DNA of 35,947 nucleotides. It comes from a virus. The translations under genes and the position numbers were made by a program. The first letter of the stretch is position 1. Each line of letters begins with the position of its first letter. The notes beneath the pieces are model-generated. The model ran no database searches. It saw only the letters and a program-made list of their open reading frames with translations, and was not told where the DNA came from. Positions 17,159-35,507 of this stretch are shown one piece after another. The DNA is taken from positions 1-35,947 of IMG/VR virus record IMGVR_UViG_3300033153_002192; one strand, given 5' to 3'.

Positions 17159-17584
17159 TTAAGTATTGCTACAAATATTAACACGGCTATGGCAAACGAT
17201 ATTGTTTTCATCTATGTATTCCTTTATGTTTGTTCCCACACTTAAATATTCTTTGTATTTTTCTATAGTCCACTTTAGTTTTTGAAAGACTTTCCAACTA
17301 TAGGAGCTCTCGAAATACCGACACAGGTTAATAATAAAATACCTATGCTTCCCGATATACTCCACGAACAGTTTCCCCGTTCTATTATAGGTCAACTGTT
17401 TACGCATATCCTGTATCTCTTTGTGAAGTTGGTCGAATTCAATCGTATAATTCACATATTTTTCCCACAGCTCACCACCGTCAAGCGTATTGATGTAGTC
17501 AAACATATCTCTATTGTCTCTTCTAAGATTAGAGAAATACGGTGGCTGTCTGCCAATTCTCTTTGAGTTGTCTGTGAGTGTCAT
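17159..17584 (-). CDS. Minus-strand HTH-like protein (candidate repressor or switch protein)
   Basis: This 141-residue protein is the only well-supported gene of ordinary length on the minus strand. Residues 6-30 (SKRIGRQPPYFSNLRRDNRD) read like a helix-turn-helix of the type found in small phage regulators, followed by an acidic coiled coil (YVNYTIEFDQLHKEIQDMRK) and a basic, aromatic C-terminal half. GAAAGGGA lies before the ATG. It is divergent from the early operon and faces a control region with a palindromic operator. That position suggests a regulator of the early promoter, but the DNA-binding role is inferred. Confidence 0.65.
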   Translation of the reverse strand: MTLTDNSKRIGRQPPYFSNLRRDNRDMFDYINTLDGGELWEKYVNYTIEFDQLHKEIQDMRKQLTYNRTGKLFVEYIGKHRYFIINLCRYFESSYSWKVFQKLKWTIEKYKEYLSVGTNIKEYIDENNIVCHSRVNICSNT

Positions 17585-17600
17585 ACTTTCCCTTTCAAAA

Positions 17601-17730
17601 GAGAACTCTTAGGTCAGCAGGGTGGAATTGAACCACGTGAGTAGATATTCAAGTACAATTATTCTCTACTATCCCGCACTACAAGGGTCGGACTTGCATC
17701 ATCCGCTTAACTGCTGAACTAAAAGTTCTC
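17601..17730 (-). ncRNA. tRNA-like structured element clamped by a long stem
   Basis: On the minus strand the 130 bases fold into an outer stem formed by 17711-17730 and 17601-17620 (20 pairs with one wobble and one mismatch). The inner 7 pairs act like an acceptor stem (TCAGCAG with CTGCTGA). Inside lie a CGGA/TCCG arm, a CCC/GGG arm whose 9-base loop contains TTGTAG, a long variable-like arm (AGTAGA/TCTACT) and a T-arm GTGG-TTCAATT-CCAC with a canonical seven-base T-loop. It is thus like a class II tRNA, but the D-loop lacks GG, the anticodon stem is short and CCT follows the discriminator position. It is in the sense strand of the HTH-gene leader. Confidence 0.4.
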
Positions 17731-17731
17731 A

Positions 17732-17795
17732 TTTAGGGTGCATAAGGAGGAGGTATTTATTGAAAGGGATTAAATAAAATAGTATGCACCCCAAA
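17732..17795. repeat. Inverted repeat enclosing an orphan ribosome binding site
   Basis: GGGTGCATA (17736-17744) is the exact reverse complement of TATGCACCC (17783-17791); with one mismatch the arms extend to 13 bases. The plus-strand loop holds the strong AGGAGGAGG signal at 17745-17753, but only a four-codon frame (TTG start at 17759) follows. It directly abuts the tRNA-like element. It may be a leader hairpin of the minus-strand transcript or the remnant of a lost plus-strand gene. Confidence 0.55.
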
Positions 17796-17810
17796 TCAAG
17801 ACTTACCACC

Positions 17811-17816
17811 ATTATA
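17811..17816 (-). promoter_or_regulatory. Candidate minus-strand promoter (-10) for the HTH-like gene
   Basis: Read on the minus strand, 17816 to 17811 is TATAAT. It would start a leader of about 220 bases containing the two hairpins before the HTH-like gene at 17584. No good -35 box is seen at 16-18 bases. It lies back to back with the strong plus promoter at 17853-17881. Confidence 0.35.
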
Positions 17817-17852
17817 CATAGATAACCTTAGATAAGTATTAATACAAATGTA

Positions 17853-17881
17853 TTGACAATGATTGTCTAATCTGATACAAT
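17853..17881 (+). promoter_or_regulatory. Strong sigma70-type promoter of the early operon
   Basis: TTGACA (17853-17858) and TACAAT (17876-17881) are separated by exactly 17 bases. The start of transcription would be near 17888, just before the ribosome binding site AAAGGA of the RHH gene at 17899. It is the only promoter here with both boxes near consensus at ideal spacing. Confidence 0.75.
17855..17867. promoter_or_regulatory. Palindromic operator candidate over the -35 box
   Basis: GACAATGATTGTC is a perfect 6+1+6 palindrome that overlaps the -35 box and spacer of the early promoter. A dimeric repressor bound here would block RNA polymerase. The string TATTGACAATG recurs at the promoter at 22334, where only the left half-site is kept. 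Candidate binders are the divergent HTH-like protein and the RHH protein encoded at 17899. Confidence 0.55.
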
Positions 17882-17898
17882 ACGAGTAAAGGATATAT

Positions 17899-18060
17899 AT
17901 GAAAAAAGCAGATACCCAAATGCAGATAAGATGCAATACAGAATATAAAACCATATTGGCACTGGCAGCTAAAAAAAATAACGTATCTTTGTCTAATTAT
18001 GTTTTGATTGCAGCACTCAATAAAGCCAAAAAAAATAAAAAGGAGTGGGTTGATGTATAA
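17899..18060 (+). CDS. Ribbon-helix-helix regulator (Arc/CopG-like)
   Basis: This 53-residue protein is the first gene of the early operon. A short strand, QMQIRCNTEYK, is followed by two helices, TILALAAKKNN and SLSNYVLIAALNKAK, the RHH pattern of Arc, Mnt and CopG dimers. A Lys-rich tail follows. RHH proteins bind operators as dimers of dimers. The gene lies directly behind a promoter with a palindromic operator, so autoregulation is likely. P22 uses Arc/Mnt in its immunity switch; whether this acts likewise is inference. AAAGGA precedes the ATG. Confidence 0.7.
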   Translation: MKKADTQMQIRCNTEYKTILALAAKKNNVSLSNYVLIAALNKAKKNKKEWVDV

Positions 18061-18089
18061 TAAACAATCTTGGCCACCCGTCATATAGG

Positions 18090-19008: not shown

Positions 19009-19344
19009 ATGACTAACATAGACCGTGAAAATGCTGTACTTGCATCATTTTTATACGCAGATGATATGGGTACAGACAAAAAACAATCTTTTGAGCTAGA
19101 TAGTAGAATTTTTACCTCATCATACAGAAGAGCAACAGCAAACAAGATCAACGATGAAACCAATAACGATAAAATGTACGGGTACTTATCTGTAACACTA
19201 CAAGACTTGACAGCCAACACTATGTATGAACAAGAGTGGATTAATATACTAGCACAAACACCTCTTCCTTTTAGTATGGCAAAAAGAATACACAATGATC
19301 TTATAGTAGAGTTTAATAACAGAATAGCAAAAGGATTAAGGTAA
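19009..19344 (+). CDS. DnaB N-terminal-domain-like protein
   Basis: This 111-residue helical protein looks like the stand-alone N-terminal domain of replicative helicase DnaB. It begins DRENAVLASFLYADD, comparable to the E.AVLG.LL of DnaB, and continues LDSRIFTSSYRRATANKIND, comparable to the D.F....H..I...I of that domain. No ATPase motif is present; that part is supplied by the gene at 19895. AAGGATTTAAC precedes the ATG. Its stop overlaps the initiator gene start by one base. The DnaB assignment is by pattern only. Confidence 0.5.
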   Translation: MTNIDRENAVLASFLYADDMGTDKKQSFELDSRIFTSSYRRATANKINDETNNDKMYGYLSVTLQDLTANTMYEQEWINILAQTPLPFSMAKRIHNDLIVEFNNRIAKGLR

Positions 19345-19904
19345 TGGCAACTAAAGGAATATGGGTAAATATAGATATCATGAACGACACAAATCTAACT
19401 GCAAATGAGAAGTTTTTATTGGCAGAGGTAGATCAATTATCATCTCTTGAAGATGGTTGTTATGCATCAAATAATCACTTCGCAGAACTTATAGGAATTA
19501 CTAGAGCAAATGCTTCAAGAACTATAGGAAATCTTGTAAAAAAGAAGTATATAATAAGTAGTATCAAGATGGGTACACGTAATCGTGAACGTAGTATCAA
19601 AATGATAAAGACGTACTATCAAAATGATAATAGGGTAGTATCAAAACGACAAGAGTCTAAAGAGAATAAACAATCTAATAAACAAATAAAGAAACAAGTG
19701 CCTACGATAGAAGAGATAGAAGCTTATATAAAAGAGAAGGAGCTAGGTGTATCAGCAAGTAAATTCTTTAACTACTTTGATGCAGGTAATTGGATAGACA
19801 GTAATGGTAAAAAAGTCAAGAATTGGAAACAAAAATTACTTACATGGGATAATCATGCTAAGCCCACAGATGCACCAAAAAAGAAAGAGCGAATATGGGG
19901 TTAG
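19344..19904 (+). CDS. Winged-helix replication initiator (lambda O/DnaD-like)
   Basis: This 186-residue protein has an N-terminal winged helix (about residues 15-75: LTANEKFLLAEVDQLS, then NHFAELIGITRANASRTIGN with the recognition helix, then LVKKKYI). A basic, low-complexity linker follows (about 76-125) whose DNA carries four iterons. The C-terminal segment (PTIEEIEAYIKEKELGVSA, then FFNYFDAGNWIDSNGKKVKN) resembles the tail of phage replisome organisers that contact a helicase or its loader. The arrangement is that of lambda O: it should bind the iterons and recruit the helicase encoded next. It overlaps the ATPase gene by ten bases. Confidence 0.75.
   Translation: MATKGIWVNIDIMNDTNLTANEKFLLAEVDQLSSLEDGCYASNNHFAELIGITRANASRTIGNLVKKKYIISSIKMGTRNRERSIKMIKTYYQNDNRVVSKRQESKENKQSNKQIKKQVPTIEEIEAYIKEKELGVSASKFFNYFDAGNWIDSNGKKVKNWKQKLLTWDNHAKPTDAPKKKERIWG
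19559..19650 (+). repeat. Iteron array inside the initiator gene (candidate replication origin)
   Basis: Four direct repeats with core TATCAAAATGATAA are spaced in helical register: TAGTATCAAGATGG at 19559, TAGTATCAAAATGATAA at 19592, TACTATCAAAATGATAA at 19614 and TAGTATCAAAACGAC at 19636. Start-to-start distances are 33, 22 and 22 bases. The array lies in the linker region of the initiator gene and is followed by a purine-rich, AT-rich stretch (19651-19700), as in lambda ori inside gene O. Confidence 0.75.
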
Positions 19905-20854
19905 AAGCAAAAGCAAAACAAGCATTTGAATTAAAAAACAAATACATACTTGAATATGACAGAGACAACATAAAAGAAGCTAAAAAATTAGAGATGCAAT
20001 ATCTCACATTAAGAAGAGAAGTTTTAACTGAGATTGATAATACTGCACTTAGACAGAGATCAGAACCTATATCCATAGTAAGGGAAAGAGTATTAAATAA
20101 AAAAAAGCCTAAGCGAATAGAAACAGGGATAAGAGAACTTGATTATGAGTTGGTAGACAATCAAATGAAGAAAAGAGAGATAAAGGGAGGCTTTGCACTT
20201 GGTAACTTTATTCAGATAGCAGGAAGTAGAGGCAGCGGGAAGAGTTCTATTATGATGAAGATACTAACCGGGTTTAGTAATTATGAAAAAACGTGTTGGT
20301 TTGATTTTGAAATGGGTGAGAGTAGGGTAGTTGAGAAACTAAACGATTTTACGCACAATGACAATAATTTGCTTTATTATTCCTCATCAAGACAGTTGAG
20401 TGATGTGGTAGATGAGATAAAACTACTCAATGCGATGGGGGTTAATCACTTTGTGGTTGATAGTGCTATGAAAATTATCGTGCCAAACCTAGATAACTAC
20501 AATAGATTTTCTGTGATCAGCTCTGAACTATCATCACTCACAAGCTCATTAGGGATAAATATATACATGATTAACCAAATGTCACAAGAAAGTGAAAAGA
20601 CAGGTATTTTGGCTATTAAGCATGGGAATGACGCAGAATATGACGCAGACTTTATTTTTTATATTGTGCAGATGAGGTCAAAAGATAAGAACGATAATTT
20701 AATGACAGATGATTTTGATATGCCTATTTACGATGACGACAGTAGATTATTAAAATGTACAAAAAACAGACAAGATGATCGCCTGTTCTCGGTTATTATT
20801 CAGAAGAGTTCCATTTTTGGGATAGTGCCAGAAATCATACCGTTTCAAGGATAA
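19895..20854 (+). CDS. DnaB-like (RecA-fold) replicative helicase ATPase
   Basis: This 319-residue protein carries a RecA-fold ATPase. Walker A is GSRGSGKSS (110-118), the segment CWFDFEMGE (about 134-142) matches the SLEM motif of DnaB with Glu139 as catalytic base, Walker B is NHFVVDS (184-190), and IYMINQMSQ supplies the sensor Gln. CTKNRQDDRL near the C-terminus corresponds to the DnaB KNR finger region. The first 90 residues are helical and basic. It lacks the DnaB N-terminal domain, which seems to be encoded at 19009. It should unwind DNA at the phage origin, or act as a helicase loader. Confidence 0.7.
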   Translation: MGLEAKAKQAFELKNKYILEYDRDNIKEAKKLEMQYLTLRREVLTEIDNTALRQRSEPISIVRERVLNKKKPKRIETGIRELDYELVDNQMKKREIKGGFALGNFIQIAGSRGSGKSSIMMKILTGFSNYEKTCWFDFEMGESRVVEKLNDFTHNDNNLLYYSSSRQLSDVVDEIKLLNAMGVNHFVVDSAMKIIVPNLDNYNRFSVISSELSSLTSSLGINIYMINQMSQESEKTGILAIKHGNDAEYDADFIFYIVQMRSKDKNDNLMTDDFDMPIYDDDSRLLKCTKNRQDDRLFSVIIQKSSIFGIVPEIIPFQG

Positions 20855-21354: not shown

Positions 21355-21600
21355 ATGAACACATACAAACTAAATTTTGCAAGTACTTGCCCTAATGACA
21401 ATGCAGTAGATAATTATAAGCTCACGATAAAAAGCAAGAAAATCATCATGGTTGAAGATATACTTGAGGTGGTGGCAGAAATAAAAAAAGAAGCAAAATA
21501 TCAGGAAGAGATACACGATACCCTAAAAAAGAATTTTCCAGAAGCAAAAATTAAAATGGTTGGGTGGCATTTAGGAATAGAGATAACAACCAAATGCTAA
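21355..21600 (+). CDS. Small protein coupled to the DpdA-like gene
   Basis: This 81-residue protein (YKLNFASTCPNDNAVDNYKL..., ending GWHLGIEITTKC) has a beta-alpha-alpha-beta look: N-terminal strands, two acidic/basic helices and a last strand. Its stop lies seven bases inside the next gene. It is not a QueD homologue, since the HGH-type zinc motifs are missing. The tight coupling suggests a partner of the transglycosylase-like enzyme, but this is inferred from position. Confidence 0.5.
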   Translation: MNTYKLNFASTCPNDNAVDNYKLTIKSKKIIMVEDILEVVAEIKKEAKYQEEIHDTLKKNFPEAKIKMVGWHLGIEITTKC

Positions 21601-22325
21601 AATATTATGGAACACCACTAACACCATTAAAAACTTTTAACGAAGTTATGCTTGGTAGAAGATGTTTAATCCCATACCCTAGACCACAAGACCTAAAAAG
21701 GGCATTAAAAATATGTGAGGGTATCATTATTGATAATGGGGCATTTACGATATGGAGACAAAACGGACTTCTGGAAAAAGGCTATTTTGAGTGGGATGAT
21801 TATTATGACTTTCTTGTAGACATTAAAAATGATATAGATTTTTTCTTTATACCCGATGTGATAGACGGAACAGAACTTGAAAATGATAGACTTATTCAGG
21901 AGTATCAATATATAAATTATCACGATAGAGACGAAATGAAAGGTGTTCCTATATGGCACATAAATGAAAGCATGGAAAGACTTGACAGGCTAATGGGTGA
22001 TTTTGATTTTATAGCAATAGGTTCTGCTGGTGAATTTGCACAGCTCGGTACTCCACAATGGGAGCAAAGAATGGATGAAGCTATGAGAGTGTTGTGTGAT
22101 AAAGAGGGATATCCAAAAGTAAAAATACATATGCTTAGGTGCTTAGACCCTAAAATATTTACACGGTTTCCATTTTATAGTGGTGACAGCACAGCACTAG
22201 CACAAAATCATAAGAGAGATGGATGGAGGCAGATAGTTGATCGTATAGAGAAGTACGACAGCCCAGAGAAATATGAATTTAGAAAATTTTATGAAACAAA
22301 ATGCCTGTTCGGAGAAGAAATCTAA
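21594..22325 (+). CDS. DpdA-like tRNA-guanine transglycosylase family enzyme (DNA base exchange candidate)
   Basis: This 243-residue protein reads as a compact TGT-family barrel of the DpdA type, enzymes that replace guanine in DNA by 7-deazaguanine derivatives. Visible motifs are MLKYYGTPLTP, IIIDNGAFTIWRQNG (Asp47), FFFIPDVIDG (Asp88), VPIWHINES (His122), FIAIGSAGEF, KIHMLRCL (His179) and YSGDSTALAQNH (Asp198). The Asp residues are candidates for nucleophile and base. ATG 21594 is chosen because the family begins with this YYGTP segment. No preQ0-synthesis genes (folE, queD, queE, queC) are seen, so the substrate would come from the host. A tRNA-directed or other role remains possible. Confidence 0.65.
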   Translation: MLKYYGTPLTPLKTFNEVMLGRRCLIPYPRPQDLKRALKICEGIIIDNGAFTIWRQNGLLEKGYFEWDDYYDFLVDIKNDIDFFFIPDVIDGTELENDRLIQEYQYINYHDRDEMKGVPIWHINESMERLDRLMGDFDFIAIGSAGEFAQLGTPQWEQRMDEAMRVLCDKEGYPKVKIHMLRCLDPKIFTRFPFYSGDSTALAQNHKRDGWRQIVDRIEKYDSPEKYEFRKFYETKCLFGEEI

Positions 22326-24569: not shown

Positions 24570-25030
24570 TGAATACAAAACTATTTAGCAAGACGATGCT
24601 TATCACGGTACTTCACTATGCAGAACACGCAAATAACAACACATACAATAAAGACTTCATTGTAAGGCTTAGAGGTGCAATCAATGGATATTTGACATTC
24701 CATAAACTAAATACTAAAGAGTCACAGCAAGTCATTGAGATAGGCAAGAGAGAGTTTATAACAAAGCTTAAAGAGACAGAAATCGACTACTCGGTGCACT
24801 TAATGGCATTGATGGAACACTGGGTTAAACTGATACCAAAAGAGGACAGGCGAAACGCTTTGAATATCTCAGACAAAAAGATATTGCAAAACAAGAGCAA
24901 ACTGATACTTGATATGCTGCAGCTCAAAAGTAGAGACAAAGATGAATATAACAGAGTTAAGCTGATTGTATCAGATAGTGAACTTGTGGCTAAGAAGTAT
25001 GCTTATTATTTAAGTGAGGAGTTGAGATGA
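24569..25030 (+). CDS. Helical early protein upstream of the methyltransferase
   Basis: This 153-residue protein is mostly helical (KLFSKTMLITVLHYAEHANN, LMALMEHWVKLIPKEDRRN, LILDMLQLKSRDKDEYNRV). ATG 24569 is preferred to upstream in-frame starts because they lie inside the membrane-protein gene. It overlaps the methyltransferase start by four bases and has GAGGAG near its end serving that gene. I do not recognise it; a role linked to the methyltransferase is possible. Confidence 0.5.
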   Translation: MNTKLFSKTMLITVLHYAEHANNNTYNKDFIVRLRGAINGYLTFHKLNTKESQQVIEIGKREFITKLKETEIDYSVHLMALMEHWVKLIPKEDRRNALNISDKKILQNKSKLILDMLQLKSRDKDEYNRVKLIVSDSELVAKKYAYYLSEELR

Positions 25031-26334
25031 AGATAGCAACAGCCTTTTCAGGCGGTTTTGGTTCGATAGAATTTGCTATGAAATGCGAGAATATAAAACA
25101 TGAAGTTGTGTTTGCGTGCGAATGGTTAGACCCCCAGAGAAAATCATATTTACACAATCACGGAGAGCCTACAAGCAATTTCTATAAAGATATTAGAGAT
25201 ATGGACGGAACTAAATATAAAGGAGAGATAGACCTTTATCATTTAAGCCCACCATGTCAAAGCTATTCACTTGCAGGAAGACGAGGAGGTGCAGCAGACG
25301 AAAGAGGAGGGTTGATGTTTTCTGCTATAAAAAGCATTAATGAAGTCCAACCAAAGATGTTCACTATCGAAAATGTGAAAGGCTTACTAAGTTCAAATGG
25401 TGGTGAAGATTGGAAAAACATTCTAAGCGATGTGAGATCACTCAAAGGGTACACGGTTCAATATGGAGTAATGAACGCAAAAGACCAGGGAACACCACAG
25501 AATCGTGAACGTTTGTTTATCGTTGGGTTCAGAGGTGAGTGTATGCCTATGCCTTTCCCCTCTGTGACGAAACTTGATAAGTGTTTGGCAAATGTTCTTG
25601 AAGATGAAGTTGATGAGAAGTATTATTTAAGTAAGAAGGCAATCGCAAACTTCATAAAAAAAGATAGCGATCCAAACAACAATATGAGTATACAAGCTTT
25701 TCACAGTAGGGAGGATGATTATTCTGCAACAATAACTGCGAGATACAACAAGCGTGGAATAACAGACCCATACATACTTGAAAGCATAAATAAGATCGGA
25801 TTTATAAACCAAGATACCCAAGCATCACAAGTATTTAGTTCAGACGGAGTTTGCCCATCATTATGTGCAGGAACACATGGATATGCACAAGGATATATAG
25901 CAGAACTAAAGCAAATAGGGAACATAGACCAAAAAGGACATAACAGTTTATGGGGAAGAGTATATGATCCGGACGGCATAGCACCAACACAAAATGCAAA
26001 AGGTGGTGGTGGTGGTGGTGCAAAGACTGGATTAGTTTTAGTAGATCAACCACATAAAGATTTTCCTTACGGAATTATTGAAATAGATGGCGAATATTAT
26101 GCTGTCAGACGTTTAACACCAAGAGAGTGTAGCCGTGTTCAAGGTGACTTCAACGATATGTTTAAACAAGGTGATGCAAGTGATACAAAACTGTACGAGT
26201 TTGTAGGTAACGCAATGGACATATCAACCACACGAAATCTACTTAAAACCATGTTTGCTCATAAGGTAGAGTTTGGAGAGCCACAAGAACCAAGCTTTGT
26301 TAGGTCAGAGACGGCACAAAAGAGTTTGTTTTGA
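25027..26334 (+). CDS. DNA (cytosine-5) methyltransferase
   Basis: This 435-residue enzyme transfers a methyl group from AdoMet to cytosine C5. Motif I is TAFSGGFGSIEFAM, motif IV SPPCQSYS (catalytic Cys77), motif VI TIENVKGL (115-117 ENV), motif VIII QNRERLFIVG, and motif X YEFVGNAMD near the C-terminus. The target-recognition part contains related units such as FSSDGVCPSLCAGTHGYAQ and YDPDGIAPTQNAKGG, the latter ending in six Gly coded by a GGT run. No restriction enzyme is adjacent, so it is an orphan, likely for protection against host restriction. Confidence 0.9.
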   Translation: MKIATAFSGGFGSIEFAMKCENIKHEVVFACEWLDPQRKSYLHNHGEPTSNFYKDIRDMDGTKYKGEIDLYHLSPPCQSYSLAGRRGGAADERGGLMFSAIKSINEVQPKMFTIENVKGLLSSNGGEDWKNILSDVRSLKGYTVQYGVMNAKDQGTPQNRERLFIVGFRGECMPMPFPSVTKLDKCLANVLEDEVDEKYYLSKKAIANFIKKDSDPNNNMSIQAFHSREDDYSATITARYNKRGITDPYILESINKIGFINQDTQASQVFSSDGVCPSLCAGTHGYAQGYIAELKQIGNIDQKGHNSLWGRVYDPDGIAPTQNAKGGGGGGAKTGLVLVDQPHKDFPYGIIEIDGEYYAVRRLTPRECSRVQGDFNDMFKQGDASDTKLYEFVGNAMDISTTRNLLKTMFAHKVEFGEPQEPSFVRSETAQKSLF

Positions 26335-35350: not shown

Positions 35351-35507
35351 CGTGAATAACTTTCAATATGTGAATAAGATGTGAATAACTCCATGATATG
35401 TGAACAACTTTCACAAAATACAACAATAATGCCAATATATATGCGAATAACTACTCTTTGATGTGAACAACTATGTGAATAACTAAAAAAGAATTAAGTT
35501 ATTCACA
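35351..35507. repeat. Cluster of Campylobacterota-type DnaA boxes (origin or regulatory region)
   Basis: Nine-base boxes matching TTATTCACA (or its complement) occur at 35351-35359, 35369-35377, 35380-35388, 35399-35407 (TGTGAACAA), 35442-35450 (TGCGAATAA), 35462-35470 (TGTGAACAA), 35474-35482 and 35499-35507 (opposite strand). Most are followed by CT. The TTCAC core is the DnaA-box core described for Campylobacterota. The region is AT-rich and non-coding. The rest of the 520-base gap (35251-35350) shows only a short ACAAC/GTTGT hairpin. Confidence 0.75.

Follow-up and report, generated by a model that had tools for sequence, protein, structure and literature searches.

A probable in-gene iteron origin in a phage PF13730 initiator gene, and its counterparts in related initiators

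The initiator gene and its neighbourhood

The window (the whole 35,947-nucleotide stretch of viral DNA that was analysed) carries on its plus strand a replication initiator gene of 186 codons (19344-19904), assigned from Pfam and PHROG matches and an AlphaFold2 model. Its product matches PF13730 (HTH_36; E=4.9e-6, 26.7 bits, above the gathering cut-off of 25), the replication initiation protein family phrog_19658 (1.8e-11) and the O-like phrog_678 (9e-7). Neither PF04492 (Phage_rep_O, the lambda O family) nor PF06970 (RepA_N) is present among its seven Pfam matches at E<=0.1; as controls, lambda O itself matches PF04492 at 5.7e-36, and the rep protein of locus L358 matches PF06970 at 2.5e-32. 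The AlphaFold2 model (mean pLDDT 80.6) predicts a winged helix at approximately residues 1-90, a disordered linker at residues 92-118, and a helical C-terminal domain at residues 121-172. The top Foldseek matches of the model are entries 4pql and 4pt7 (E about 1e-2, 7.8e-3 for 4pql, prob 1.00), which we take to be N-terminal domains of RepA_N initiators, and the Rep-DNA entry 5kbj ranks below them. Alignment of the initiator with 4pql by VIA-align gave Z 9.2 over 90 residues, a score tied with those of unrelated generic winged helices, and the family profile searched against solved structures gave weak matches, mostly to winged-helix proteins.

The next gene on the plus strand (19895-20854), which overlaps the end of the initiator gene, encodes a DnaB-like RecA-fold helicase of 319 amino acids (PF03796, 9.4e-7; phrog_19 DnaB-like replicative helicase, 1.5e-11). 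Genes for DUF1064/Holliday-junction-resolvase-like, Erf, NinB-like and SSB proteins lie further downstream. A PHROG search of 30 ORFs, complemented by a Pfam search of 20 of them, found no DNA polymerase, and therefore DNA synthesis is likely to be carried out by a host polymerase. The T7-like particle proposed in an earlier note on this DNA is backed by a portal match (PF12236, 2.3e-84) together with tail, internal-virion and T7-capsid-assembly-like matches.

Several other features of the window were recorded. A queuine tRNA-ribosyltransferase-like gene (21564-22325; phrog_887, 1.4e-55) is possibly part of a 7-deazaguanine DNA modification pathway, and a C5-cytosine DNA methyltransferase (PF00145, 4.3e-53) is encoded at 25027-26334. 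At the left edge (1-640), the match to a major head protein begins at profile position 71 of 294, and an open frame crosses the joined ends of the record (1 / 35947); the record ends were probably cut within the capsid gene. GC skew, suggested earlier as a check on the origin, has no clear turning point at the repeats described below; it follows gene strand and is uninformative for the origin. Where the skew goes negative (17159-18084), there are two small minus-strand ORFs (17159-17584 and 17839-18084), which have no family match at E<=0.01 and possibly constitute a regulatory switch.

The repeat array and the A-rich tract

Within the initiator gene, a 14-mer of the GTAGTATCAAAATG type occurs four times on the plus strand, with starts at 19558, 19591, 19613 and 19635, so that the spacings are 33, 22 and 22 bp; the copies read GTAGTATCAAAATG(ATAA), and the whole array occupies 19558-19652. 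Copy 2 (19591-19608, dyad at 19595-19607) and copy 3 (19613-19630, dyad at 19617-19629) are identical to TATCAAAATGATAA and contain a perfect dyad with 5-bp arms, TATCA-AAA-TGATA. Copy 1 (19558-19571), 33 bp ahead of copy 2, and copy 4 (19635-19652), which reads TATCAAAACGACA, retain the left arm TATCA, and their right half is degraded. The array has the highest TRF score of 27 rows in the window (88, the next being 46), and its chain score is 53, whereas the best scores elsewhere in the window are 36 and 38 and those of 12 length-matched Markov-1 genomes do not exceed 37. Thus the four repeats reported in the earlier note are confirmed, with their spacings, as the strongest repeat array of the window.

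The placement of the repeats in the linker-coding part of the gene, also proposed earlier, holds for copies 3 and 4, which encode residues 90-96 and 98-103 of the disordered linker, but not for copies 1 and 2, which encode residues 72-76 and 83-89, in the wing of the winged helix. The reading frames of copies 1 to 4 are 1, 1, 2 and 0; therefore the iterons are not a peptide repeat, and that reading was ruled out. A reading of the in-gene repeats as DnaA boxes (TTATNCACA) was likewise ruled out, there being no match to TTWTNCACA within 19344-19904.

Directly after the array, as the earlier note had described, lies a purine- and AT-rich tract (19653-19700, plus strand), with 75% A+T (97th percentile among 48-bp windows), 58% A (99th percentile) and a purine content at the 95th percentile. 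The tract is a putative unwinding element. Within it the sequence AATAAACA is present twice, 12 bp apart (19665-19672 and 19677-19684). Plasmid Rep proteins are reported to bind, in tracts of this kind, repeats carried by a single strand (PMC4081077), and DnaD is reported to bind one strand at oriC (PMC10201434).

Arrays in related PF13730 initiators

An alignment of ten PF13730 initiators was used as the scan query. The first scans gave 160 loci (80 of at least 548 viral loci and 80 of 100 genome loci), from which, with earlier loci included, 172 genes were identified by HTH profile and 104 remained after filters for length (at least 120 amino acids) and redundancy. The second scans (80 of at least 565 loci and 80 of at least 559) gave 160 genes, of which the 52 unlike the first set were kept as a second, non-overlapping set. 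A 14-bp repeat with at most three mismatches at a lag of 22 bp is found in 57.7% of the 104 first-set relatives among the matches listed, compared with 17.4% of synonymous shuffles of the same genes and 2 of 186 control genes (1.1%), which are other ORFs of the same loci. Lags of 21, 23, 43-46 and 65 are likewise raised in the first set. In the second set, lag 22 is present in 35 of 52 genes.

When an array is defined as three or more copies within the gene at spacings of 19-25 bp, 66 of the 104 first-set genes among the matches listed possess one, 21 have two copies, and 17 have none by this rule; L031, which is truncated, and L035 (LE1) have no array. The spacings in the first set are 22 bp (71 cases), 23 (40), 21 (30), 24 (18), 20 (12) and 25 (2), and the copies occupy three reading frames in 28 arrays, two in 32 and one in 6. 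The second set has at least three copies in 34 of 52 genes and two copies in 14, and every one of these 34 arrays uses more than one frame. The window shares this trait of the family, with three copies at 22 bp and a further one at 33. The check proposed earlier, whether the repeats persist in relatives as the linker protein drifts, gave a positive answer that goes beyond the question: the spacing of about 22 bp is preserved although both the linker protein and the iterons themselves differ in sequence. These counts suggest that in-gene repeats approximately 22 bp apart are widespread in the PF13730 initiator family.

The initiator-like genes of L001-L020 often have in-gene repeats with a TRF period near 11 or 22, seen without a null comparison, and many share with the window only a C-terminal KxxNWKQK-like motif, their N-terminal domains being different. 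Short PF13730 genes that stop shortly beyond the winged helix and seem to have no array were seen in L140, L145, L146, L150, L151, L163, L174 and L180, which are GC-rich, mostly Verrucomicrobia-related contigs; several of these genes have a GGGGGTATGAAGAAAACTTC-like 3' end in common.

An AATACA-type element beyond the arrays

An AATACA-type element, counted as AATACA, AATAACA, AATANACA or AATANNACA, is found within 90 bp past the array in 52 of the 66 first-set genes with arrays, in at least two copies in 45, whereas the 90 bp ahead of the array contain it in seven genes and never in two or more copies. Markov shuffles gave means of 13.6 (at least one copy) and 2.7 (at least two), with maxima of 23 and 8. 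The steps between elements are 15 bp (26 cases) and 12 bp (14 cases). The second set is similar: the element lies past the array in 31 of 34 genes and is repeated in 29 of 34, compared with 7 and 0 ahead of the array and 8.9 and 1.8 in shuffles. Among loci of more than 50% G+C, AATACA occurs within 75 bp in 13 of 13 arrays; when codons for the same protein were redrawn from the rest of each gene, 0.46 were expected (at most 2 in 200 draws), so the element is held at the DNA level, although it keeps mostly to one frame (49 of 55), as a constraint on the peptide would also produce. In the window the element takes the form AATAAACA, at 19665 and 19677.

The recognition helix and the iteron sequence

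The residue scored in the recognition helix is the one after its conserved Ser. Across the 66 arrays of the first set, E at this position is accompanied by TTCGR iterons in 20 of 21 cases and Q by iterons of the TTTAG/TTAAT class in 9 of 10. This association was found by looking, and the second set was therefore collected. There, at least two TTCGR copies are present in 8 of 8 genes with E and 0 of 44 others (under a stricter rule, with ties broken against E, five of the eight E genes scored CGG), and the TTTAG/TTAAT class is found in 20 of 21 Q genes versus 10 of 31 others. With the two sets pooled, TTCGR accompanies 28 of 30 E residues and 1 of 126 non-E residues. The window has R with TATCAAAAYGA, and three other loci (L036, L044 and L053) have R with ATCAAA-type iterons. 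The E/Q label changes eight times on the best tree, which was built from 78 columns and is weak, with one independent pair on supported branches, so common descent may underlie the association. A single recognition-helix residue tracks the iteron sequence, although not independently of phylogeny.

Apparent exchange of the initiator and its iterons

Close relatives, at 38-55% identity, have arrays mostly at 22 bp with different iteron sequences, exemplified by the TATCAAATTGAA type in L036, CTTATCGAATCGACAAG in L037, CCTAAACAAAACGTCAAG in L038, the TTACTAAAACAGCAA type in L039 and TATCAACTCAGGTTGAT in L046. The sister phage G007 (the contig of L038) resembles the window in its portal (81% identical), Erf (80.5%) and tail protein (60-77%); its iterons, at 22/22, are unlike those of the window in sequence, and no match to the helicase was found in its locus. 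L024 and L025 have a helicase that is 80% identical but an unrelated initiator tail, which bears a separate 22-bp repeat in the corresponding position (1.9 copies in L024, TRF score 84). At L026, next to a helicase 47% identical, a third iteron sequence is found at 22/22. A search of these helicase relatives (L024-L027) for the initiator of the window gave no match at E 10. The reading offered for L024-L026 is that the initiator has been exchanged. Given the different iterons of G007 and the unrelated initiators beside similar helicases, the initiator and its iterons thus behave as one cassette, a replication module being exchanged among phages whose structural genes are otherwise held in common; because both lie in one gene, origin and specificity domain would move and diverge together.

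Interpretation of the array as a replication origin

Taken together, a PF13730 gene, helically phased dyad iterons, and an A-rich tract with in-step repeats form an architecture that appears to be conserved family-wide while the iteron sequence varies. From this comparison of sequences, the array is very probably the replication origin of the phage, lying within the gene that encodes its initiator.

The explanation that most merits weighing against this one, although it is improbable, places the origin at 35351-35507, where host DnaA would act on a cluster of boxes, and leaves the in-gene repeats to serve something else. Within 157 bp the cluster, of AGTTRTTCACA type, has eight 9-mers that match the DnaA box consensus TTATNCACA with no more than one mismatch (four are perfect TTATTCACA), and it includes a 16-nt inverted pair. 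It sits between the scaffold-like and capsid genes. However, the sister phage G007 has no TTRTTCACA in its entire record, while its in-gene array is present, and no box array was seen in the part examined downstream of the scaffold-like ORF; a promoter-like sequence, TGATATAAT, just downstream of the cluster is equally in keeping with transcriptional control. The region could serve as an origin that depends on DnaA or as a regulated promoter. It is less probable still that the in-gene repeats are not an origin and act as operators for repression of the initiator gene itself or of the helicase gene: the winged-helix fold is common in repressors too, and a protein bound within its own gene could block transcription, but the repeats are mid-gene and not at a promoter, the A-rich element lies on the same side past the array in 52 of 66 genes, the family is classed as replication initiation, and lambda and pSK41 offer precedents for mid-gene binding sites that are origins. 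Operator and origin roles could coexist.

Two further explanations are hardly credible. One is that the repeats arose by chance or as a by-product of a repetitive linker protein, for which it may be said that a lag-22 signal survives in 17% of synonymous shuffles across the family and that 3 of 1000 synonymous shuffles of the initiator gene of the window reach its chain score of 53. Against it, 22 is not a multiple of 3 and the copies are spread over more than one frame in 60 of 66 and 34 of 34 arrays, and lag 22 is found in only 2 of 186 control genes. The other is that in-step phasing serves intrinsic curvature through phased A-tracts, for example at a packaging or recombination site. Most iterons do have an AAA or AAAA core, and lambda iterons are described as intrinsically bent (PMC7466680), but within each array conservation takes in the arms as well as the A-tract, and the arms vary with the recognition helix.

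If the array is the origin, the N-terminal winged helix would bind the iterons on one helix face and bend or wrap the DNA, the adjoining A-rich tract would melt, and the flexible linker and C-terminal domain would recruit the DnaB-like helicase encoded next door, with DNA synthesis falling to the host polymerase.

A broader proposal, which we hold tentatively and at somewhat less than even chances, is that PF13730 phage initiators have one compact in-gene origin grammar: three to six dyad iterons at 22 +/- 2 bp, followed by a strand-specific AATACA-type element every 12 or 15 bp, which the initiator (perhaps through a DnaD/DnaB_2-like C-terminal domain) would read as single-stranded DNA and so position the helicase. 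A code carried mostly by one residue, with E reading TTCGR, Q reading TTTAG/TTAAT and R reading the TATCAAAAYGA of the window, would let the cassette change specificity. If this is true, a change of specificity would make related phages compatible or let them escape origin-directed attack. The analysis as a whole turns one suspected origin into a testable rule, that the origin of a large phage initiator family can be found by reading the initiator gene, with origin specificity partly predictable from one residue; it may be of use in annotating origins in uncultured phages and could yield small orthogonal replicons. No report of the 22-bp rule, the AATACA element or the recognition code for PF13730 phage initiators was seen in the open-access literature searched, most subscription papers lying outside it.

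Comparison with known in-gene origins

The probable origin of the window may be likened to lambda ori and to RepA_N plasmid origins, without membership in the lambda O family. The iterons of lambda and Stx phages are described as mid-gene inverted repeats bound by O, with an AT-rich region adjoining (PMC7466680). In lambda (NC_001416), they are annotated within O at 39034, 39054, 39078 and 39101. Lambda ori and the window are alike in having four dyad iterons with an AAA core within the initiator gene, past its winged-helix part, an A-rich tract beside them, and a helicase-recruiting gene downstream. They differ in initiator family (PF04492 for O, PF13730 for the window), in spacing (20, 24 and 23 bp versus 33, 22 and 22 bp) and in the next gene, which encodes the loader P in lambda and the DnaB-like ATPase in the window; the HTH profile gave no match to lambda O at E 1e-3. 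Of the lambda-like origin claimed in the earlier note, then, the layout stands (in-gene dyad iterons, an A-rich tract, a helicase gene next), but the protein family is another. The available text of a report on Stx-phage replication regions (PMC8951638) mentions HTH_36 proteins there, without the word iteron.

Among plasmids, pSK41 has Rep boxes centrally in rep, with a linker encoded by the origin DNA and an N-terminal winged helix, according to a review (PMC5703833). RepA_N replicons of this type resemble the window in all three respects and differ in their family, PF06970, to which the protein of the window has no match. The rep gene of pUSA03, which shows at L358:509-650 a 23-bp repeat in 3.8 copies followed by a 15-bp repeat, resembles the window in having an iteron-like array and then a shorter repeat. 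In the same review pUSA03 is named as a pfam13730 hybrid type (PMC5703833); its rep matches PF06970 in the record examined, and it was dropped as a hybrid and served as a RepA_N comparison. For pPR9, the review describes a pfam13730 domain that, together with its origin, replaced the RepA_N block on a pSK41 backbone as one unit of approximately 500 bp, giving autonomous replication and compatibility (PMC5703833); the hybrid Rep has the same Pfam domain as the window, but belongs to a plasmid and not a phage. In PLE satellites, the RepA DNA-binding domain and the origin are reported to covary and to be swapped together as a module (PMC8263062), but their origin is intergenic, whereas that of the window would be in-gene. 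In light of the experimental precedents in lambda, pSK41 and pPR9, the in-gene arrangement is already known, and the window alone is an ordinary new example of it. The phages HU1, Skulduggery, vB_LspM-01 and phiSa2wa_st5 differ from the window in iteron sequence (for example TTCGGAAAA), in the C-terminal domain and in the gene for the helicase or loader, but share with it a homologous winged helix, in-gene iterons approximately 22 bp apart, and an AATACA-type tract.
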